64,000 nt of DNA from Sulfurimonas xiamenensis (GTDB lineage Bacteria > Campylobacterota > Campylobacteria > Campylobacterales > Sulfurimonadaceae): NCBI RefSeq assembly GCF_009258045.1, contig NZ_CP041166.1:992001-1056000 (forward strand), given 5' to 3'. A model generated the notes under the pieces. The model searched no databases. It saw only the letters and a list, made by a program, of their open reading frames with translations, and was not told the DNA's origin. This document shows positions 27,106 to 43,997 of this stretch, in pieces; position 1 is the stretch's first letter, and every line of letters begins with the position of its first letter. The position numbers and the translations under genes were made by a program.

Positions 27106-27111
27106 ATTATA
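27106..27111 (-). promoter_or_regulatory. Candidate -10 box for hemL
   Basis: TATAAT on the minus strand, 34 bases before the hemL TTG start, in the divergent gap to the TonB-like gene. Confidence 0.45.
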
Positions 27112-27168
27112 GCTAATAACTATTAATCTATGTTGGTTATAATAATTGAAATTTTTTTAAGGAATTAC

Positions 27169-28110
27169 TTGAATCGTTCATATTTTGCCCTCTTTGTAGC
27201 TCTTTTAATTCATATTTTGCTGCTGCTTATATTTTGGTTTCTTGGCACTATAACACCGGAAATTGAAAAAAAAGAGAATAAAAAAGAGAATAAAATAAAA
27301 ATTTCATTAAAAGAGATGCCAAAAAAGCATAAGGATAGCGGAGATATTAAAAAAGAGGATACTAAAAAACCAAAAGAGATAGCTCCCCCTATGCCAAAAG
27401 GGAGTCAACTTAAAAAAATAGAAAATTCTCTGCAACAAAAACCGCCTATAGAGTTTAAGCCAAAAAAAGTTCAACCAACAAAGAGCAAAAAATTACCTAT
27501 GGAAAAAGCAAAATCTATTGTTGAACAAAAAAAAGTTGAACAAAAGATAAAAAAAGAGAGCAAGGTTGAAATCAAACAGCCAAAAATAGAACCTCTTCCG
27601 CCGACTAAGCCATATATACCTTTAACATCTCTGCCAACACCTCCGAAAAAGGAAAAAGAGAGTAAAAAAGAGTCTTACGACTGGTTATATGAGGATAGAT
27701 CAAAAGAGGAAAAAAAGACAAAAGAGAGTAAAAAAGAGAACGGAAGCAGTATTGGAAATTCAAATTTAAAAGAGCTTTACGGAGATGAGTTTGGCAAGCT
27801 GACCCCGGGACAGCAAAAATATCTTATTGACAATCAAGAGATAATGAGAAGAATAACGCAAGAGGTTTTAAATAGGGTAGCCAGAGTAAACCTTTCAAGA
27901 GATATAAATGTAAACAGTACAAACATCGTAGAGTTTTATCTTCATCCAAATGGAGATATGACAGATTTTAAATTTCTCAAAAAAAGCGGGTATTATGTTT
28001 TAGACGATACTACAAAAGAGACGATTGAATACGCTTACAGCAGATATCCACGGCCAAATGAAAAAATATTAGTTCGATACAATGTTTTTTATAATTTGGC
28101 CGGATACTAA
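27169..28110 (+). CDS. TonB/TolA-like energy transducer
   Basis: 313 residues from a TTG at 27169, chosen for its AAGGA site five bases upstream. A frame extension to 27130 lacks such a site. One N-terminal membrane helix (about 6-25) is followed by a long Lys/Pro/Glu-rich stalk (about 30-220) that spans the periplasm, and a TonB-type C-terminal domain with 'IVEFYLHPNGDMTDF' near 260 and 'YSRYPRPNEKILVRYN'. It couples the proton gradient to outer-membrane receptors or Tol. No exbBD or tol genes are adjacent. Confidence 0.75.
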   Translation: MNRSYFALFVALLIHILLLLIFWFLGTITPEIEKKENKKENKIKISLKEMPKKHKDSGDIKKEDTKKPKEIAPPMPKGSQLKKIENSLQQKPPIEFKPKKVQPTKSKKLPMEKAKSIVEQKKVEQKIKKESKVEIKQPKIEPLPPTKPYIPLTSLPTPPKKEKESKKESYDWLYEDRSKEEKKTKESKKENGSSIGNSNLKELYGDEFGKLTPGQQKYLIDNQEIMRRITQEVLNRVARVNLSRDINVNSTNIVEFYLHPNGDMTDFKFLKKSGYYVLDDTTKETIEYAYSRYPRPNEKILVRYNVFYNLAGY

Positions 28111-35530: not shown

Positions 35531-35553
35531 AAATAGAACTTTAAAGGAGTTGC

Positions 35554-36150
35554 TTGAAATTTACATTTTTAGAGGTTAAAGAGAGTGATATATTAGAAAA
35601 GGTATTTGCATTTCGCTATAAAATACTTTTAGAAATATATCCGCAATATTTAAAAAAGTGCAACTTTTCAGATACCAAAGAGTATGATGAGTATGATAAA
35701 TATTCAGTACATTTTGCGGTACTAGATGAAAATGATGAAGTTGGTGCAACGGTAAGAATTATACACAACTCTCCTATTGGTTATCCCACAGAAAATAATA
35801 TGACATTTGACAGCAGCATGTTTGAAAGAGATAAACTCGGGGAGATGTCAAGAATCTTTGTAGATGCTAAATACAGAAATATAAAAACTACAAAAAGTAT
35901 TATGCAGGGGCTTAAACAAATCATATACAATAAAATGAAAGAGTTGGGCTTAGAGTATACATACGGCTCACAGGAAGCAAGCTTTTTAAGACTGCTGAAG
36001 ATGTACAAAATGAACTATCATACTATAGGTGAAGAACAAATGTATAAAGATGTTGGTTTTCGATATCCGTCCATTATATATACAAAAGAGTTTGGTGAAG
36101 ATAATCCGGATATTGCTCAATTCTGGAAAGAAGAATATGAAAAAAAATAG
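35554..36150 (+). CDS. LuxI/FeeM-like GNAT acyl transferase (candidate signal synthase)
   Basis: 198 residues from a TTG with AAAGGAG four bases before it. The order 'VFAFRYKI' (R21), 'YDEYDKYS' (D45, D48), 'GATVRII' (R68), and 'GEMSRIFV' (E97, R100) follows the LuxI/EsaI autoinducer-synthase and N-acyl-amino-acid-synthase (FeeM, exosortase-associated) pattern. D45, D48, R68, E97 and R100 match the numbering I recall for EsaI. The conserved Trp34 is not evident. These enzymes take an acyl chain from acyl-ACP. The acceptor is unknown. It overlaps the receptor gene start by 14 bases. Confidence 0.7.
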   Translation: MKFTFLEVKESDILEKVFAFRYKILLEIYPQYLKKCNFSDTKEYDEYDKYSVHFAVLDENDEVGATVRIIHNSPIGYPTENNMTFDSSMFERDKLGEMSRIFVDAKYRNIKTTKSIMQGLKQIIYNKMKELGLEYTYGSQEASFLRLLKMYKMNYHTIGEEQMYKDVGFRYPSIIYTKEFGEDNPDIAQFWKEEYEKK

Positions 36151-38209
36151 TTTGTTAAACTCACTCAAATTTAGTTCTGTTGTATTACTATTATTAGGTT
36201 TTGCTAATTTAAAAGCAAAAACAACTGATATAGTAGACTCGATATCTAATGATATGAAACATTTTGATGAAGTTGCAACGATTACAAAACAAAATGAGCA
36301 CTATCAGCCCTATATTATCTCTGTATTTCATGGAGAAGAGCTTGAAAAACTTGGTGTCTCAAATCTTAAAGAGGCACTGGAATTAGTCCCTGGGGTTGAT
36401 ATGACCACTGATAATTTAAACAATCAAACTCCTATTTTCAGAGGTTCAAACTCCAGTGCCTATGGGCAGTCAAAACTTTTTATAGACGGTGTATCTGTCA
36501 ATAATGTTTTTTCAGACGGTTATTCCGAATACCTCTTTTTTCCTATAGAGATGATTAAAAGAATCGAAGTAGTGAGAGGTCCGGGAAGTAAAACAGATGG
36601 TGTTAATGCTTATGCAGGATCTATCAATGTTATAACCTATGCAGAAGATTTTAAAGGATTTGAGTCTAATGATAAGCTAGTATTTAAGCATGGCTCGTAT
36701 GATTACTATATGGGCGGATTTATGAAAACCTATAAAAAAGATGATTTAAAAGTTTTTATAAATTTTTTCTACCAAGAAGATAACAAAAAGCTGCCTGCAG
36801 GTCCTGACGGTCTCTCACAAGGTGTATTGGGGACAGAAAATATAGCTCTCTCTCAATCAGGAGATGCACCTTTATGGCTAGAGTCTTACTCGCTTGGCAT
36901 CAATCTTCAATACAAAGATTTTTCAATCAAAGCAAGAGCACTTCAGCACAAACAAGGAAGTGCATATGGTATAAATCTTGCATTGCCGCAGGAAAGCGAT
37001 AGAATAAAAGCGCCAAATCACTATCTTGAACTAGGTTATAAAAAAGAGATGGGAGATTATAAAGCCGATATAAAAGCAGGAATAAAATATGACGCATTCG
37101 ATTCATATTCTAAATTACTGCCTGATGGTTTTGAAACAGACGGTATTGTCTTTAATGAAGGTGTATATGGAGAGCACTTTGCTGCACAAAGAACACTCTA
37201 TCAATCCTCTTATCTTAAATATAGCGGAATTAAAAAACATACTATTACTGCAGGTTACCGTTTTAAAAAAGAAGAAACCATAGATATGAGATCAAAACTT
37301 TCAAACAGAGAGAGCGGTGATGTAGAATTGGTTGATTATAGTGAAACATTTGCATTTTTTGATGCAGATGCCAAGCGAAATATTTTTACCTTCTCGCTTC
37401 AAGATGAATTCCTGTTTAACAATGCTTTTAGCTTTATTTACGGTTTTAATTATGAAGAGACATCATATAAAGATGCAGGATTTGAACCCAGAATCTCAAT
37501 GGTTTATCAAAAAGACAGAGAAAATATTTTCAAAGCCATGTATAGCCGTTCGCATAGAAATGCTTCATGGCAGGAGATGTTTACAATGAATAATTTAGCA
37601 AGAGTTGGAAACACAGATTTGGAGCCTGAAATAGTGGATGCTTTTGAAGTTGCATATATAAAAAAATTCTCAAGCGACTCCCATTTTCAAGCCAATCTTT
37701 TTTATCTGCTTAACAAAGATCAAATATATAACTCTTCCACAAATCCTGAGTATGAAAATGCAATGGATACAGATATTTACGGTTTTGAGCTTGAGTACAA
37801 AGGAAGCATACTTCCTGTTGATCAACTATACCTAAACTACTCTTATGTAGATGGAAAATCATATATAAATAACAAAGACAGAAGTGAATCTCTGCCAAAT
37901 GTCTCCCAGCATTTGGCTAAAGGGTACTATATCTATAATCTAAATAGCGCATTATCACTTAGTACTACTCTTAAATATGTCGGTTCAAAAGAGAGAATAT
38001 TTATAGATACGCGTGAAAAACTTGAAGCTTATTCAACAATAGACGCATCACTAAGTTATAGAAATCAAAAATATGATTATATGTTAACAGCCAGTGTTAA
38101 AAATCTATGTGATACAAAGGTTGTTTTTCCATCTGCGCCTAACACATATATAGATGATTATGAACAAGAGCGTAGAAATTTTCTTATAGCATTTACGAAA
38201 AAGTTTTAA
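36137..38209 (+). CDS. TonB-dependent outer membrane receptor
   Basis: 690 residues from an ATG at 36137, chosen because a signal peptide (MKKNSLLNSLKFSSVVLLLLG) begins there. The plug domain has 'LKEALELVPGVDM' and 'EVVRGPGSKTDGVNAYAGSINVITY' patterns. The 22-strand barrel ends in a terminal Phe (FTKKF). It takes up or senses a bulky ligand using TonB energy. The start lies inside the 3' end of the acyltransferase gene, so the two are translationally linked. The ligand is unknown. Siderophores, cobalamin and signal molecules are all possible. Confidence 0.85.
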   Translation: MKKNSLLNSLKFSSVVLLLLGFANLKAKTTDIVDSISNDMKHFDEVATITKQNEHYQPYIISVFHGEELEKLGVSNLKEALELVPGVDMTTDNLNNQTPIFRGSNSSAYGQSKLFIDGVSVNNVFSDGYSEYLFFPIEMIKRIEVVRGPGSKTDGVNAYAGSINVITYAEDFKGFESNDKLVFKHGSYDYYMGGFMKTYKKDDLKVFINFFYQEDNKKLPAGPDGLSQGVLGTENIALSQSGDAPLWLESYSLGINLQYKDFSIKARALQHKQGSAYGINLALPQESDRIKAPNHYLELGYKKEMGDYKADIKAGIKYDAFDSYSKLLPDGFETDGIVFNEGVYGEHFAAQRTLYQSSYLKYSGIKKHTITAGYRFKKEETIDMRSKLSNRESGDVELVDYSETFAFFDADAKRNIFTFSLQDEFLFNNAFSFIYGFNYEETSYKDAGFEPRISMVYQKDRENIFKAMYSRSHRNASWQEMFTMNNLARVGNTDLEPEIVDAFEVAYIKKFSSDSHFQANLFYLLNKDQIYNSSTNPEYENAMDTDIYGFELEYKGSILPVDQLYLNYSYVDGKSYINNKDRSESLPNVSQHLAKGYYIYNLNSALSLSTTLKYVGSKERIFIDTREKLEAYSTIDASLSYRNQKYDYMLTASVKNLCDTKVVFPSAPNTYIDDYEQERRNFLIAFTKKF

Positions 38210-38749
38210 ATGAAAAAAATAGTTTTACTCTCTCTTATTTTTATAAATATAGCTTATGGTTTTAGTTATAACGATATTTTGCTAAAAGCGCAAGCTTCTA
38301 TTTTTCCTAAAATTTTACTTCTTGATAAAAAGTTAAATAACAAACTTATCAATAAAGAGATAGTTTATACTATTGTTTATGAAAAAATTGATTATCTTAC
38401 AGCTTTAGAAATAAGCAACTTTATAGATAAAAACTACAACGGTTATTTCGGTAAATACCCCTACAGCATAAATTTAGTACAATTTTCAGATATATCAACT
38501 CAGACCGAGGCATCTGCAATTTATGTTTTAAATTCAGATAAAAATATTAGAAAAATTGTTGACATTGCAAAAACAAAAGGAGTTATAACATTTAGTTACG
38601 ATATTGATAATTTAAAAGAGGGTTTGCTCTTCTCTTTAATGTTAGAAAAATCAACTGTAATTTATCTTAACAAAGAGAACCTCTACACTAAAGATATAAA
38701 CTTTGTCGATCCACTTTACCAAATCGTCAAATTTATTGATAAACAATAA
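38210..38749 (+). CDS. YfiR-like exported protein (DUF4154-like)
   Basis: 179 residues with a signal peptide (about 1-17). The ATG follows the receptor stop directly. Segments such as 'ASAIYVLNSDKNIRKIVD' near 97 and 'GVITFSYDIDNLKEGLLFSLMLE' near 123 followed by 'VIYLNKENL' resemble the YfiR/DUF4154 fold. YfiR restrains the diguanylate cyclase YfiN from the periplasm. Its position between a receptor and a GGDEF-EAL protein fits that logic. Similarity is remote and needs profile support. Confidence 0.55.
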   Translation: MKKIVLLSLIFINIAYGFSYNDILLKAQASIFPKILLLDKKLNNKLINKEIVYTIVYEKIDYLTALEISNFIDKNYNGYFGKYPYSINLVQFSDISTQTEASAIYVLNSDKNIRKIVDIAKTKGVITFSYDIDNLKEGLLFSLMLEKSTVIYLNKENLYTKDINFVDPLYQIVKFIDKQ

Positions 38750-38832
38750 AAATAAAATAAAACTTTTATAATAATAATGTTACAATTTTTTTAATCAAAG
38801 AGAGTTATATAATTTAATGGCAAGGTGGTAAA

Positions 38833-40824
38833 GTGGAAAAAGAGAATTTAAAATCTCTCTCAAGCAAAATAGTTTTTTCAATCGCCCTTGCATCATTGTT
38901 TATCCTTTTAGGTTTTTTTACAGTTTTTGAAAAGATAAATAAAGAAGCTTTTTATCAAATCGAGGGAGAAAAAGCGGAAATAATTGCAAAAACTATAGAG
39001 CCGCTTATTGGGATGAATATCTATCTTGATATGAAAGAGAATGTCGAACAAATCACACGCCAACTTTTAGAAAATCCAAATATATTAGCCATAAAAATTC
39101 TAGCAAACAATGAAATAATCAGTGAAATGAAGTCTAATGCATATCAAAATAATTTAGATGACTCATTTATAGTTACAAAGAGTATTTTGCAGCCTAACTC
39201 TTATAAAGAAGTAGGTCGTCTTACACTTACCTATTCCAATAAAGAGTATAAAGAGTTAGTAGGTGAATTTACAGATATTTTACTTAAACTGCTTTTAGTT
39301 TTAACTTTGCTCTTTATCTTATTTGGTATATATATAAAGCGTCTTCTCTCTCCGCTTCGAAAAATTTCTAGATCATTAAAAAATTATTCTCCAAATAAAA
39401 ATATTAAATTCCCTTATGCATCGCAAAAAAATGAAATTGGATTAATCTCAAACGCTCTCAATGAGATGCAAGAAAAAATTTGCGAATATTCAAAAAAGCA
39501 AGAAAACATTAACAATTATCTTGAAGAACAAGTAGAAGAAAAAACAAAAGAGCTTCGTAAACAGCTCTATACAGATACTTTGACAGGATTACCAAATAGA
39601 TTTAGTCTTGTTAATTGTCTAGCTAGTATAAAAGATGGTGCACTGATTGTTTTAAATATAGATGATTTTAAAGAGATAAATGATTTTTATGGGCATGCGG
39701 CAGGTGATGGCATATTAAAAAAACTCTCAAATAGACTTAAAAATATATTTAAAGAAAATGAAACTGTTCAATTAAAATATCTATCCAGTGATGAATTTGC
39801 TCTTCTGTTTACACAAAAGCCTCAATTAAAAAATTTTATACAAACTATTGAAAAATTAATTTTTGCTATAGAAAAAATGATTTTTTTATATCAAGAAAAT
39901 GAGATTAATATTAGAGTAACCATAGGTGCAACCTATGAGATAGACAGAGCACTCGAAAAAGCTGATATAGCTCTAAAATCCGCAAGAAAACAACAAAAAT
40001 CTTTTTTACTATATGACAAAAAATTAAATATAGAAAAACAGTATAAAAATAATATGGAATGGGTGAAAAAACTTAATAAAGCACTTGAACAAGATAAAAT
40101 AGTTCCATACTTTCAACCTATTTTTGACAATACTACAAACAAAATCTCCAGCTATGAGTGTTTAATTCGTTTAATTAATAGTGACAATACACCTATTACC
40201 CCAGATATATTTTTAACAATTGCTAAAAAAAGCAGACTTTATAAAACACTAACTAAAATTATGATTGAAAAAAGCTGTCAATATTTTGAACATATCGATT
40301 CGAATTTTTCAATTAATTTATCTGTAGAAGATATACTCAACAAAGAGATCGTTACTTATATAAAACAAAAGATAAAACAATACAAAGTTGCAGATAAAAT
40401 TATTTTTGAAATTTTAGAGTCAGAAGGCATAGAAAATTATGAAGAGATATCTATCTTTATAAATGATATGAAAAAACTTGGCTGCAAAATAGCTATAGAT
40501 GATTTTGGAAGCGGATACTCAAATTTTGAATATCTCCTCAAACTAAATATCGATTATATCAAGATTGACGGCACGCTGATAAAAAATCTTGATAAAGATA
40601 TCAATGCCCAAATGATTGTTGGAATAATCGTAGAGTTTGCAAAAAGATTAAACATTGTTACCATAGCAGAATATGTCCACAGCAGAGAAGTTTTTGAAAA
40701 AGCCAAAGAGCTTAATATAGATCGTATTCAAGGGTTTTTTATAGCCAAACCACAACCAACTATCTCTTCTATCAAAGATAACGCACTATCTCTGATAGAG
40801 TCGGATGGGCAAAAATCATTTTAA
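38833..40824 (+). CDS. Membrane HAMP-GGDEF-EAL cyclic di-GMP protein
   Basis: 663 residues from a GTG with AAGGTGG upstream. Helix 1 is at 12-30, a periplasmic sensor at 31-150, helix 2 at 155-172, HAMP near 173-225, GGDEF near 250-400 and EAL near 415-660. The GGDEF signature is changed to SSDEF, so cyclase activity is doubtful. The EAL domain keeps E in ECL, 'NLSVED', 'DDFGSGYSN', 'KIDG' and 'IAEYV', so it probably hydrolyses cyclic di-GMP. The layout resembles YfiN. Its end overlaps lpdA antisense by 53 bases. Confidence 0.85.
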   Translation: MEKENLKSLSSKIVFSIALASLFILLGFFTVFEKINKEAFYQIEGEKAEIIAKTIEPLIGMNIYLDMKENVEQITRQLLENPNILAIKILANNEIISEMKSNAYQNNLDDSFIVTKSILQPNSYKEVGRLTLTYSNKEYKELVGEFTDILLKLLLVLTLLFILFGIYIKRLLSPLRKISRSLKNYSPNKNIKFPYASQKNEIGLISNALNEMQEKICEYSKKQENINNYLEEQVEEKTKELRKQLYTDTLTGLPNRFSLVNCLASIKDGALIVLNIDDFKEINDFYGHAAGDGILKKLSNRLKNIFKENETVQLKYLSSDEFALLFTQKPQLKNFIQTIEKLIFAIEKMIFLYQENEINIRVTIGATYEIDRALEKADIALKSARKQQKSFLLYDKKLNIEKQYKNNMEWVKKLNKALEQDKIVPYFQPIFDNTTNKISSYECLIRLINSDNTPITPDIFLTIAKKSRLYKTLTKIMIEKSCQYFEHIDSNFSINLSVEDILNKEIVTYIKQKIKQYKVADKIIFEILESEGIENYEEISIFINDMKKLGCKIAIDDFGSGYSNFEYLLKLNIDYIKIDGTLIKNLDKDINAQMIVGIIVEFAKRLNIVTIAEYVHSREVFEKAKELNIDRIQGFFIAKPQPTISSIKDNALSLIESDGQKSF

Positions 40825-43754: not shown

Positions 43755-43997
43755 TTAGAGCTGTTTGAGAAAATGCTCTGCCATATTATTTAATGTATCC
43801 ACTTTTGAATAGTCAGCTTCAGGTACTTCAATTCCCAGCTTCTCATTAAGAGCAGTAAGTATCTTTAAAAAATCAAATGAATCAATCTCTAATGAGCGCT
43901 GAATATTTTTATTCTCATCGATATCATCTTCTGAAATTTCGGGAGCAATCTCTAAAATCTGCTCGATTATAATTTTTTTTATCTCATCCATGTTCAT
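43755..43997 (-). CDS. Acyl carrier protein (operon-specific)
   Basis: 80 residues, acidic four-helix carrier with the phosphopantetheine Ser40 in 'EIDSFDFLKI'. The usual fatty acid ACP carries DSLD/DSLDTVE, so DSFDF marks a divergent, probably specialised copy. It lies between the E2 gene (4-base overlap) and the LipM gene, 13 bases apart. It presumably supplies the octanoyl group for lipoylation. Confidence 0.85.
   Translation of the reverse strand: MNMDEIKKIIIEQILEIAPEISEDDIDENKNIQRSLEIDSFDFLKILTALNEKLGIEVPEADYSKVDTLNNMAEHFLKQL

Follow-up and report, generated by a model that had tools for sequence, protein, structure and literature searches.

Why should a candidate acyltransferase, a TonB-dependent receptor, an exported YfiR-like protein and a membrane-bound GGDEF-EAL protein be encoded side by side in Sulfurimonas xiamenensis, a member of the sulfur-oxidising Sulfurimonas group? 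Here, we analysed this four-gene locus, which lies in the 64,000-nucleotide stretch of DNA under study (the window) and belongs to a genome of 1.916 Mb in one contig. The original prediction proposed that a self-produced or environmental acylated ligand is sensed at the cell surface and that the YfiR-like protein relays this to cyclic di-GMP (c-di-GMP). Our results support the gene identities and their linkage, while the ligand, the relay and the direction of the c-di-GMP change are put forward as what we infer. The best reading, to which we give somewhat better than even credence, is a self-made acyl signal that is received at the outer membrane and controls c-di-GMP, the messenger by which cells switch between swimming and settling.

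Table 1 Features of the locus, with positions in the window.
Feature	Position	Strand	Remark or basis
Probable ribosome binding site of AT	35544..35549	+	AAGGAG, read off the sequence
Acyltransferase gene (AT)	35554..36150	+	TTG start
TonB-dependent receptor gene (TBDR)	36137..38209	+	own ATG at 36137; Plug match
YfiR-like gene, exported periplasmic protein, divergent DUF4154	38210..38749	+	fold, family relatives, hhalign
HAMP-GGDEF-EAL gene, inner membrane protein	38833..40824	+	EAL, GGDEF and HAMP matches

The four genes had been described as tightly spaced on one strand, and every detail proved right on re-reading: AT and TBDR overlap by 14 bases, TBDR and the YfiR-like gene meet with a gap of 0, and a gap of 83 bases precedes the GGDEF-EAL gene. 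A longer open reading frame of the receptor (726 residues, GTG at 36029) is a mechanical one only, the true start being the ATG listed in Table 1. Matches in a promoter and terminator scan were no commoner than in shuffled sequence. When the four window proteins were compared with the families named in the original prediction, EAL and Plug were matched, Autoind_synth and DUF4154 (PF13689) were not.

An acyltransferase of the LuxI/FeeM-like branch

The window acyltransferase (ACYLTRANSFERASE) matches the Pfam model Acetyltransf_5 at 1.6e-9 and falls just under the cut-off of Pfam FeeM (24.2 bits, cut-off 27), with no match to Autoind_synth. Among its homologues (n = 31), Acetyltransf_5 was matched by all 31, FeeM by 26 and Autoind_synth by 24, with Autoind_synth above its cut-off in the relatives from L045, L049 and L270 and FeeM above its cut-off in those from L269, L270 and L273. 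The AlphaFold model of AT (pLDDT 95.4) came closest to TofI (Z 18.5), LasI (18.3), BjaI (17.7), RpaI (17.6) and FeeM (17.6), compared to a Z of 16.3 at most for generic GNATs, and a search of PDB sequences with the AT profile returned TofI (3e-4) and LasI (4e-3). Seven residues (R21, E43, D45, D48, E97, S99 and R100) are invariant across the 31 sequences; R68 is present in the window protein and most homologues. The conserved catalytic residues of LuxI are R25, E44, D46, D49, R70, E101 and R104 in V. fischeri numbering, and all invariant AT residues except S99 correspond to R25, E44, D46, D49, E101 and R104 of this set (PMC5539150). The equivalents of LuxI F28/F29 and W34/W35 are not kept in the AT family, the first position being Leu in the window protein and Phe in some homologues and the second being Trp only in an Arcobacter-type subtype.

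Since the fold and these residues are kept and F29 and W35 are not, AT looks capable of N-acyl synthesis of the LuxI/FeeM type, but we refrain from classing it as an AHL synthase. Within the GNAT fold we place it in the LuxI/FeeM-like branch, as a candidate for the synthesis of a small N-acylated signal. The original call of an acyl signal synthase stands in so far as AT resembles AHL synthases and FeeM more than it does generic GNATs, and is weakened by the missing Autoind_synth match of the window protein. On the fold ranking and the conserved residues, we rejected the reading of AT as a generic GNAT.

A different role is conceivable. The best NCBIfam match of the AT family in 31 of 31 homologues is TIGR03694, an exosortase-associated acyltransferase, and four of the 31 show weak matches to OlsB. 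An acyltransferase of the ornithine-lipid or exosortase-associated type would make an envelope lipid, and TBDR and the YfiR-like protein would then monitor the condition of the outer membrane in the manner of YfiB in the YfiBNR system. The window AT, however, stays below the cut-off in all such matches (3e-17 for TIGR03694), the unit holds no exosortase or OlsA-type partner, and the TonB-box-like segment of the receptor points to a ligand that diffuses. We consider a function in envelope lipids very improbable.

By which receptor could an N-acylated signal be perceived? The LuxR-type AHL-binding domain (PF03472) had no match in the genome, on which ground we rejected a classical LuxI/LuxR system; this leaves TBDR as the obvious candidate receptor. 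Ordinary AHLs are generally taken to cross membranes without any TonB-dependent receptor. Hence, the AT product would have to be a larger, a charged or a long-chained molecule, unless the ligand is something else. A small acyl-carrier-protein-like gene at 43755-43997 (-) of the window, located between lipoate-ligase-like and lipoyl-domain E2 genes within a run of pyruvate-dehydrogenase/lipoylation genes that is oriented opposite to the module, might be a supplier of acyl groups.

Receptor, periplasmic protein and output enzyme

The receptor matches Plug (Pfam, 4e-18) and carries a conserved, TonB-box-like segment, FDEVATITK; no N-terminal signalling (STN) domain was found in it. TonB genes are present in the genome, and together with the TonB-box-like segment they suggest import of the ligand into the periplasm. 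The genome encodes three TonB-C-domain proteins, one of them at about 27110-28110 (+) of the window, a 327 aa open frame about 7.5 kb upstream of the module. In a Nitratiruptor-like group, the gene adjoining the module has a TonB-like start (L128, L130, L131, L134, L206, L207 and also L208, L210, L212, L213, L214), which would fit energised uptake.

TonB-dependent receptors mostly carry metal chelates. AT could accordingly make or finish an acylated public-good chelator or surfactant that is recovered by TBDR, with the YfiR-like and GGDEF-EAL proteins reporting successful uptake, e.g. of iron, to c-di-GMP, so that signalling would be subordinate to nutrition, and the siderophore receptor family TIGR01783 is indeed weakly matched by 33 of 33 receptors. 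The window receptor nevertheless scored below the cut-offs of the siderophore (106 bits, cut-off 223.5), B12 (84 bits, cut-off 599.7) and heme (71 bits, cut-off 316.9) receptor families, so that none of these three assignments is supported and the original prediction is not refuted on this point. The unit also lacks genes for an ABC permease, a periplasmic siderophore-binding protein, a ferric reductase and a peptide synthetase, and the conserved partners of the receptor are signalling proteins. Overall, we regard such a metallophore or nutrient circuit as unlikely.

The window YfiR-like protein had no meaningful match in Pfam or NCBIfam, including DUF4154 (PF13689). Its model (pLDDT 88.7) matched YfiR crystal structures with Foldseek E values of 5e-6 to 1e-4 and Z scores of 13.3-14.5 (rmsd 2.8-3.1 over 142-144 aa). 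Of 33 homologues, nine match DUF4154 (best 6e-6), more distant relatives found with the same profile pass the DUF4154 cut-off, and hhalign aligned the family with DUF4154 at 93% over the full length. As a PDB sequence search with the YfiR-like profile did not return YfiR among its matches, the assignment rests on the fold, the relatives and hhalign, and these uphold the label "YfiR-like" even though Pfam misses the window protein. A scan of genome contigs with this protein as query found nothing, and its alignment offers no usable conserved stretch, the receptor alignment being usable instead. In P. aeruginosa, YfiR represses YfiN until it is sequestered by YfiB, and it binds small molecules weakly (PMC4887326). 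The fold of the window protein also resembles solute-binding proteins (half of one), which makes direct ligand binding plausible.

The output protein is built as TM-periplasmic domain-TM-HAMP-GGDEF-EAL, with Pfam matches to EAL (1e-64), GGDEF (4e-21) and HAMP (6e-6); no Pfam sensor domain was found in it. The catalytic residues of EAL (E, N, ExxE, DD, K, E, Q) are conserved throughout the aligned homologues, the window protein among them. The domains and architecture of the predicted two-TM GGDEF-EAL protein were confirmed, but the copy in this genome has a degenerate GGDEF motif, YLSSDEF compared to SGDEF in most homologues. With a degenerate GGDEF and an intact EAL, the output is probably c-di-GMP breakdown, and judged by these motifs the window protein is probably a phosphodiesterase. 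A DgcN/YfiN model aligned to residues 6-370 (7e-32), probably mostly via GGDEF, and did not match the N-terminal part of the protein alone.

The N-terminal half, comprising sensor and HAMP, is common to the outputs of modules without AT, whereas their catalytic half differs and belongs to GGDEF-only enzymes and a histidine kinase. This sharing of the sensor half with exchange of the catalytic half supports a modular front end of TBDR, YfiR-like protein and sensor with swappable outputs. Proteins of 486-491 aa with the same sensor half adjoin AT-less receptor-YfiR pairs in L125, L137, L219 and L220; the partner in L220, the only one scanned with Pfam, is a histidine kinase. In another AT-less locus (L190:12812-14550), a small HTH and a HipA-like gene, possibly a toxin-antitoxin pair, follow receptor and YfiR-like gene in the usual place of GGDEF-EAL. 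Canonical DUF4154 proteins lie between TonB-receptor-like and GGDEF genes elsewhere in the Campylobacterota (L155, L157), and TBDR-YfiR-GGDEF looks like a general, little-studied arrangement.

Co-inheritance, loss and replacement of the candidate synthase

Loci were sampled from AT and, since AT-anchored sampling could be biased, the sampling was repeated with the YfiR-like profile and then with the receptor in named genomes as anchors. Within the receptor clade in named genomes, the YfiR-like gene is adjacent in 56 of 57 receptor-anchored loci, and AT in 40 of the 52 with room upstream. All 54 complete modules carry AT, TBDR and YfiR on one strand, and GGDEF-EAL follows downstream on the same strand in 46 of them, while it lies divergently upstream in a Sulfuricurvum group. 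The junctions in these modules mostly overlap or touch, which is consistent with translational coupling. Modules were found in Sulfurimonas, Sulfuricurvum, Hydrogenimonas, Nitratiruptor and Arcobacter, MAGs included, so the co-occurrence in related genomes that had been anticipated extends across several families. Flanking genes recur within single lineages only (at most 11 of 48); their variation marks the four genes as the unit and is a further point against a metallophore circuit.

In the receptor tree, 66 of 66 AT-bearing rows fall into one clade of 83 with a support of 100; AT is missing at scattered tips inside this clade and never present outside it, and the Arcobacter modules are nested among Sulfurimonas rows. 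The distance matrices of AT and TBDR correlate strongly (Mantel r 0.89), a value which is weak evidence by itself as genes of one operon share their phylogeny anyway. Among 298 genomes of the phylum, a YfiR-like match occurs in 15 of 17 AT-bearing ones, the corresponding Fisher test ignoring kinship. L125/L185 and L225 represent additional, second receptors, a complete module being present in the same genomes. With these profiles, neither AT nor a YfiR-like gene was seen next to distant receptors from anammox, Nitrospirae and planctomycete MAGs and from Motiliproteus. The linkage of the four genes is not due to chance.

Many related TBDR-YfiR pairs have no adjacent AT, so the front end needs none and might sense a ligand made by others, with AT modifying that ligand or the sensor circuit. 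Against this, AT accompanies a single receptor clade, together with which it moves or is exchanged, and its features are of the synthase type and not of the generic GNAT type. This reading appears decidedly unlikely to us, and we continue with a self-made signal.

What becomes of the module when the synthase is lost? In G053 and G073, AT is a pseudogene with receptor, YfiR and GGDEF-EAL intact. Such a decay is expected of a shared diffusible product, and it is equally typical of siderophore-like public goods, so that retention of the receptor after synthase loss also speaks for the metallophore reading. No AT was found in the genomes of the MAGs L188, L190, L219, L220 and L221, which may be incomplete. 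One sample label (355-202) covers the AT-bearing bins L173, L189 and L191 together with the AT-less bin L188. L124 and L200 are not counted as synthase losses, as a related AT occurs elsewhere in both genomes.

Two species (G417 and G046) have a receptor operon to which no AT is adjacent; a related AT is found elsewhere in the genome, directly after a gene of the leucine-carboxyl-methyltransferase (LCM) family. This LCM-linked subtype forms one fully supported clade with the receptor-adjacent ATs of Arcobacter L181 and L183, and in L181 the gene order is LCM-AT-TBDR-YfiR-GGDEF/EAL. LCM genes directly before a LuxI/FeeM-like AT with an LGW motif were seen at L181:6178-7705, L270:5957-7424 and L049:12755-14283; the window genome contains no LCM-type methyltransferase. 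A carboxyl methyltransferase ahead of AT points to a product with a free carboxylate, e.g. an N-acyl amino acid, that would be methylated in that branch. The gene order suggests that the AT product may be an N-acyl amino acid or its ester.

Proposed circuit and comparison with known systems

We propose a self-contained circuit that would operate much as quorum sensing does, with reception at the outer membrane. In its first step, AT would attach an acyl chain taken from acyl-ACP or acyl-CoA to a small amine, most probably an amino acid or a related compound, to give an exported N-acyl signal. TBDR would catch this signal from its own cell or from neighbours and pull it into the periplasm. There, following the analogy to YfiBNR and the co-inheritance of the genes, the YfiR-like protein may act as a switch: binding either the imported ligand or the receptor loaded with it, it would change its grip on the sensor domain of the GGDEF-EAL protein, and this protein would then alter c-di-GMP, here most likely via the EAL phosphodiesterase. 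Relatives without AT couple this front end of TBDR, YfiR and sensor to other outputs (GGDEF-only or histidine kinase) and probably respond to ligands made by others. Whether this amounts to a class of quorum sensing in its own right, running from a self-made N-acyl signal over TBDR and YfiR-like protein to a c-di-GMP phosphodiesterase without a LuxR-type or two-component receptor and including receiver-only species, we judge to be evenly balanced.

The acyl signals known so far are as a rule read in the cell interior, by LuxR, or by sensor kinases of the inner membrane. If the proposal is true, neighbours would be sensed in a new way, through an outer membrane receptor that is energy-driven, dedicated to a self-made acyl signal and tied directly to c-di-GMP. 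For Campylobacterota living in sulfidic waters and at vents, with no LuxR-type receptor here, this would offer a possible means to coordinate biofilm formation and dispersal, and it would give YfiR-fold proteins a possible role driven by a ligand, together with a concrete set of genes. No description of the AT-TBDR-YfiR-GGDEF/EAL combination was found in the open-licence literature, in which DUF4154 is named by a single paper; the parts are of known kinds, and the sensing of a self-made signal in this manner seems not to have been reported before.

Four known systems resemble the module in part. In FecA-FecR-FecI, a TonB-dependent receptor reports its ligand to the inside of the cell, and the module likewise would signal the ligand of such a receptor inward; it has no STN domain, FecR or sigma factor, however, and uses a YfiR-like relay and c-di-GMP output instead. 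With the LuxI family (TofI, LasI, BjaI, RpaI, EsaI), AT has in common the residues R / E-x-D-x-x-D / R / E-x-S-R and the fold (Z 17.5-18.5 for TofI, LasI, BjaI and RpaI); it differs in the F28/F29 and W34/W35 positions, in the missing Autoind_synth match and in a genome without a LuxR-type receptor. The N-acyl amino acid synthase FeeM likewise shares the fold (Z 17.6) and lends its Pfam family to 26 of 31 AT homologues, the window protein being just below the cut-off; we know of no FeeM that is linked to a receptor gene.

YfiBNR of P. aeruginosa and E. coli and HmsCDE of Yersinia also place a periplasmic regulator of the YfiR fold beside a TM-periplasmic domain-TM-HAMP-GGDEF protein, and both have an outer membrane partner, as in the Sulfurimonas module. 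In YfiBNR, this partner is the OmpA/Pal lipoprotein YfiB, whereas the module has TBDR in its operon; YfiN makes c-di-GMP, whereas the module output combines an intact EAL with a degenerate GGDEF in this genome. P. aeruginosa YfiR contains disulfide cysteine pairs (PMC4887326), while the mature window protein contains no cysteine, and YfiBNR has no leading acyltransferase gene, with which the module starts. The closest known system is hence YfiBNR, with YfiB exchanged for a TonB-dependent receptor, an output of the phosphodiesterase type and a synthase added.
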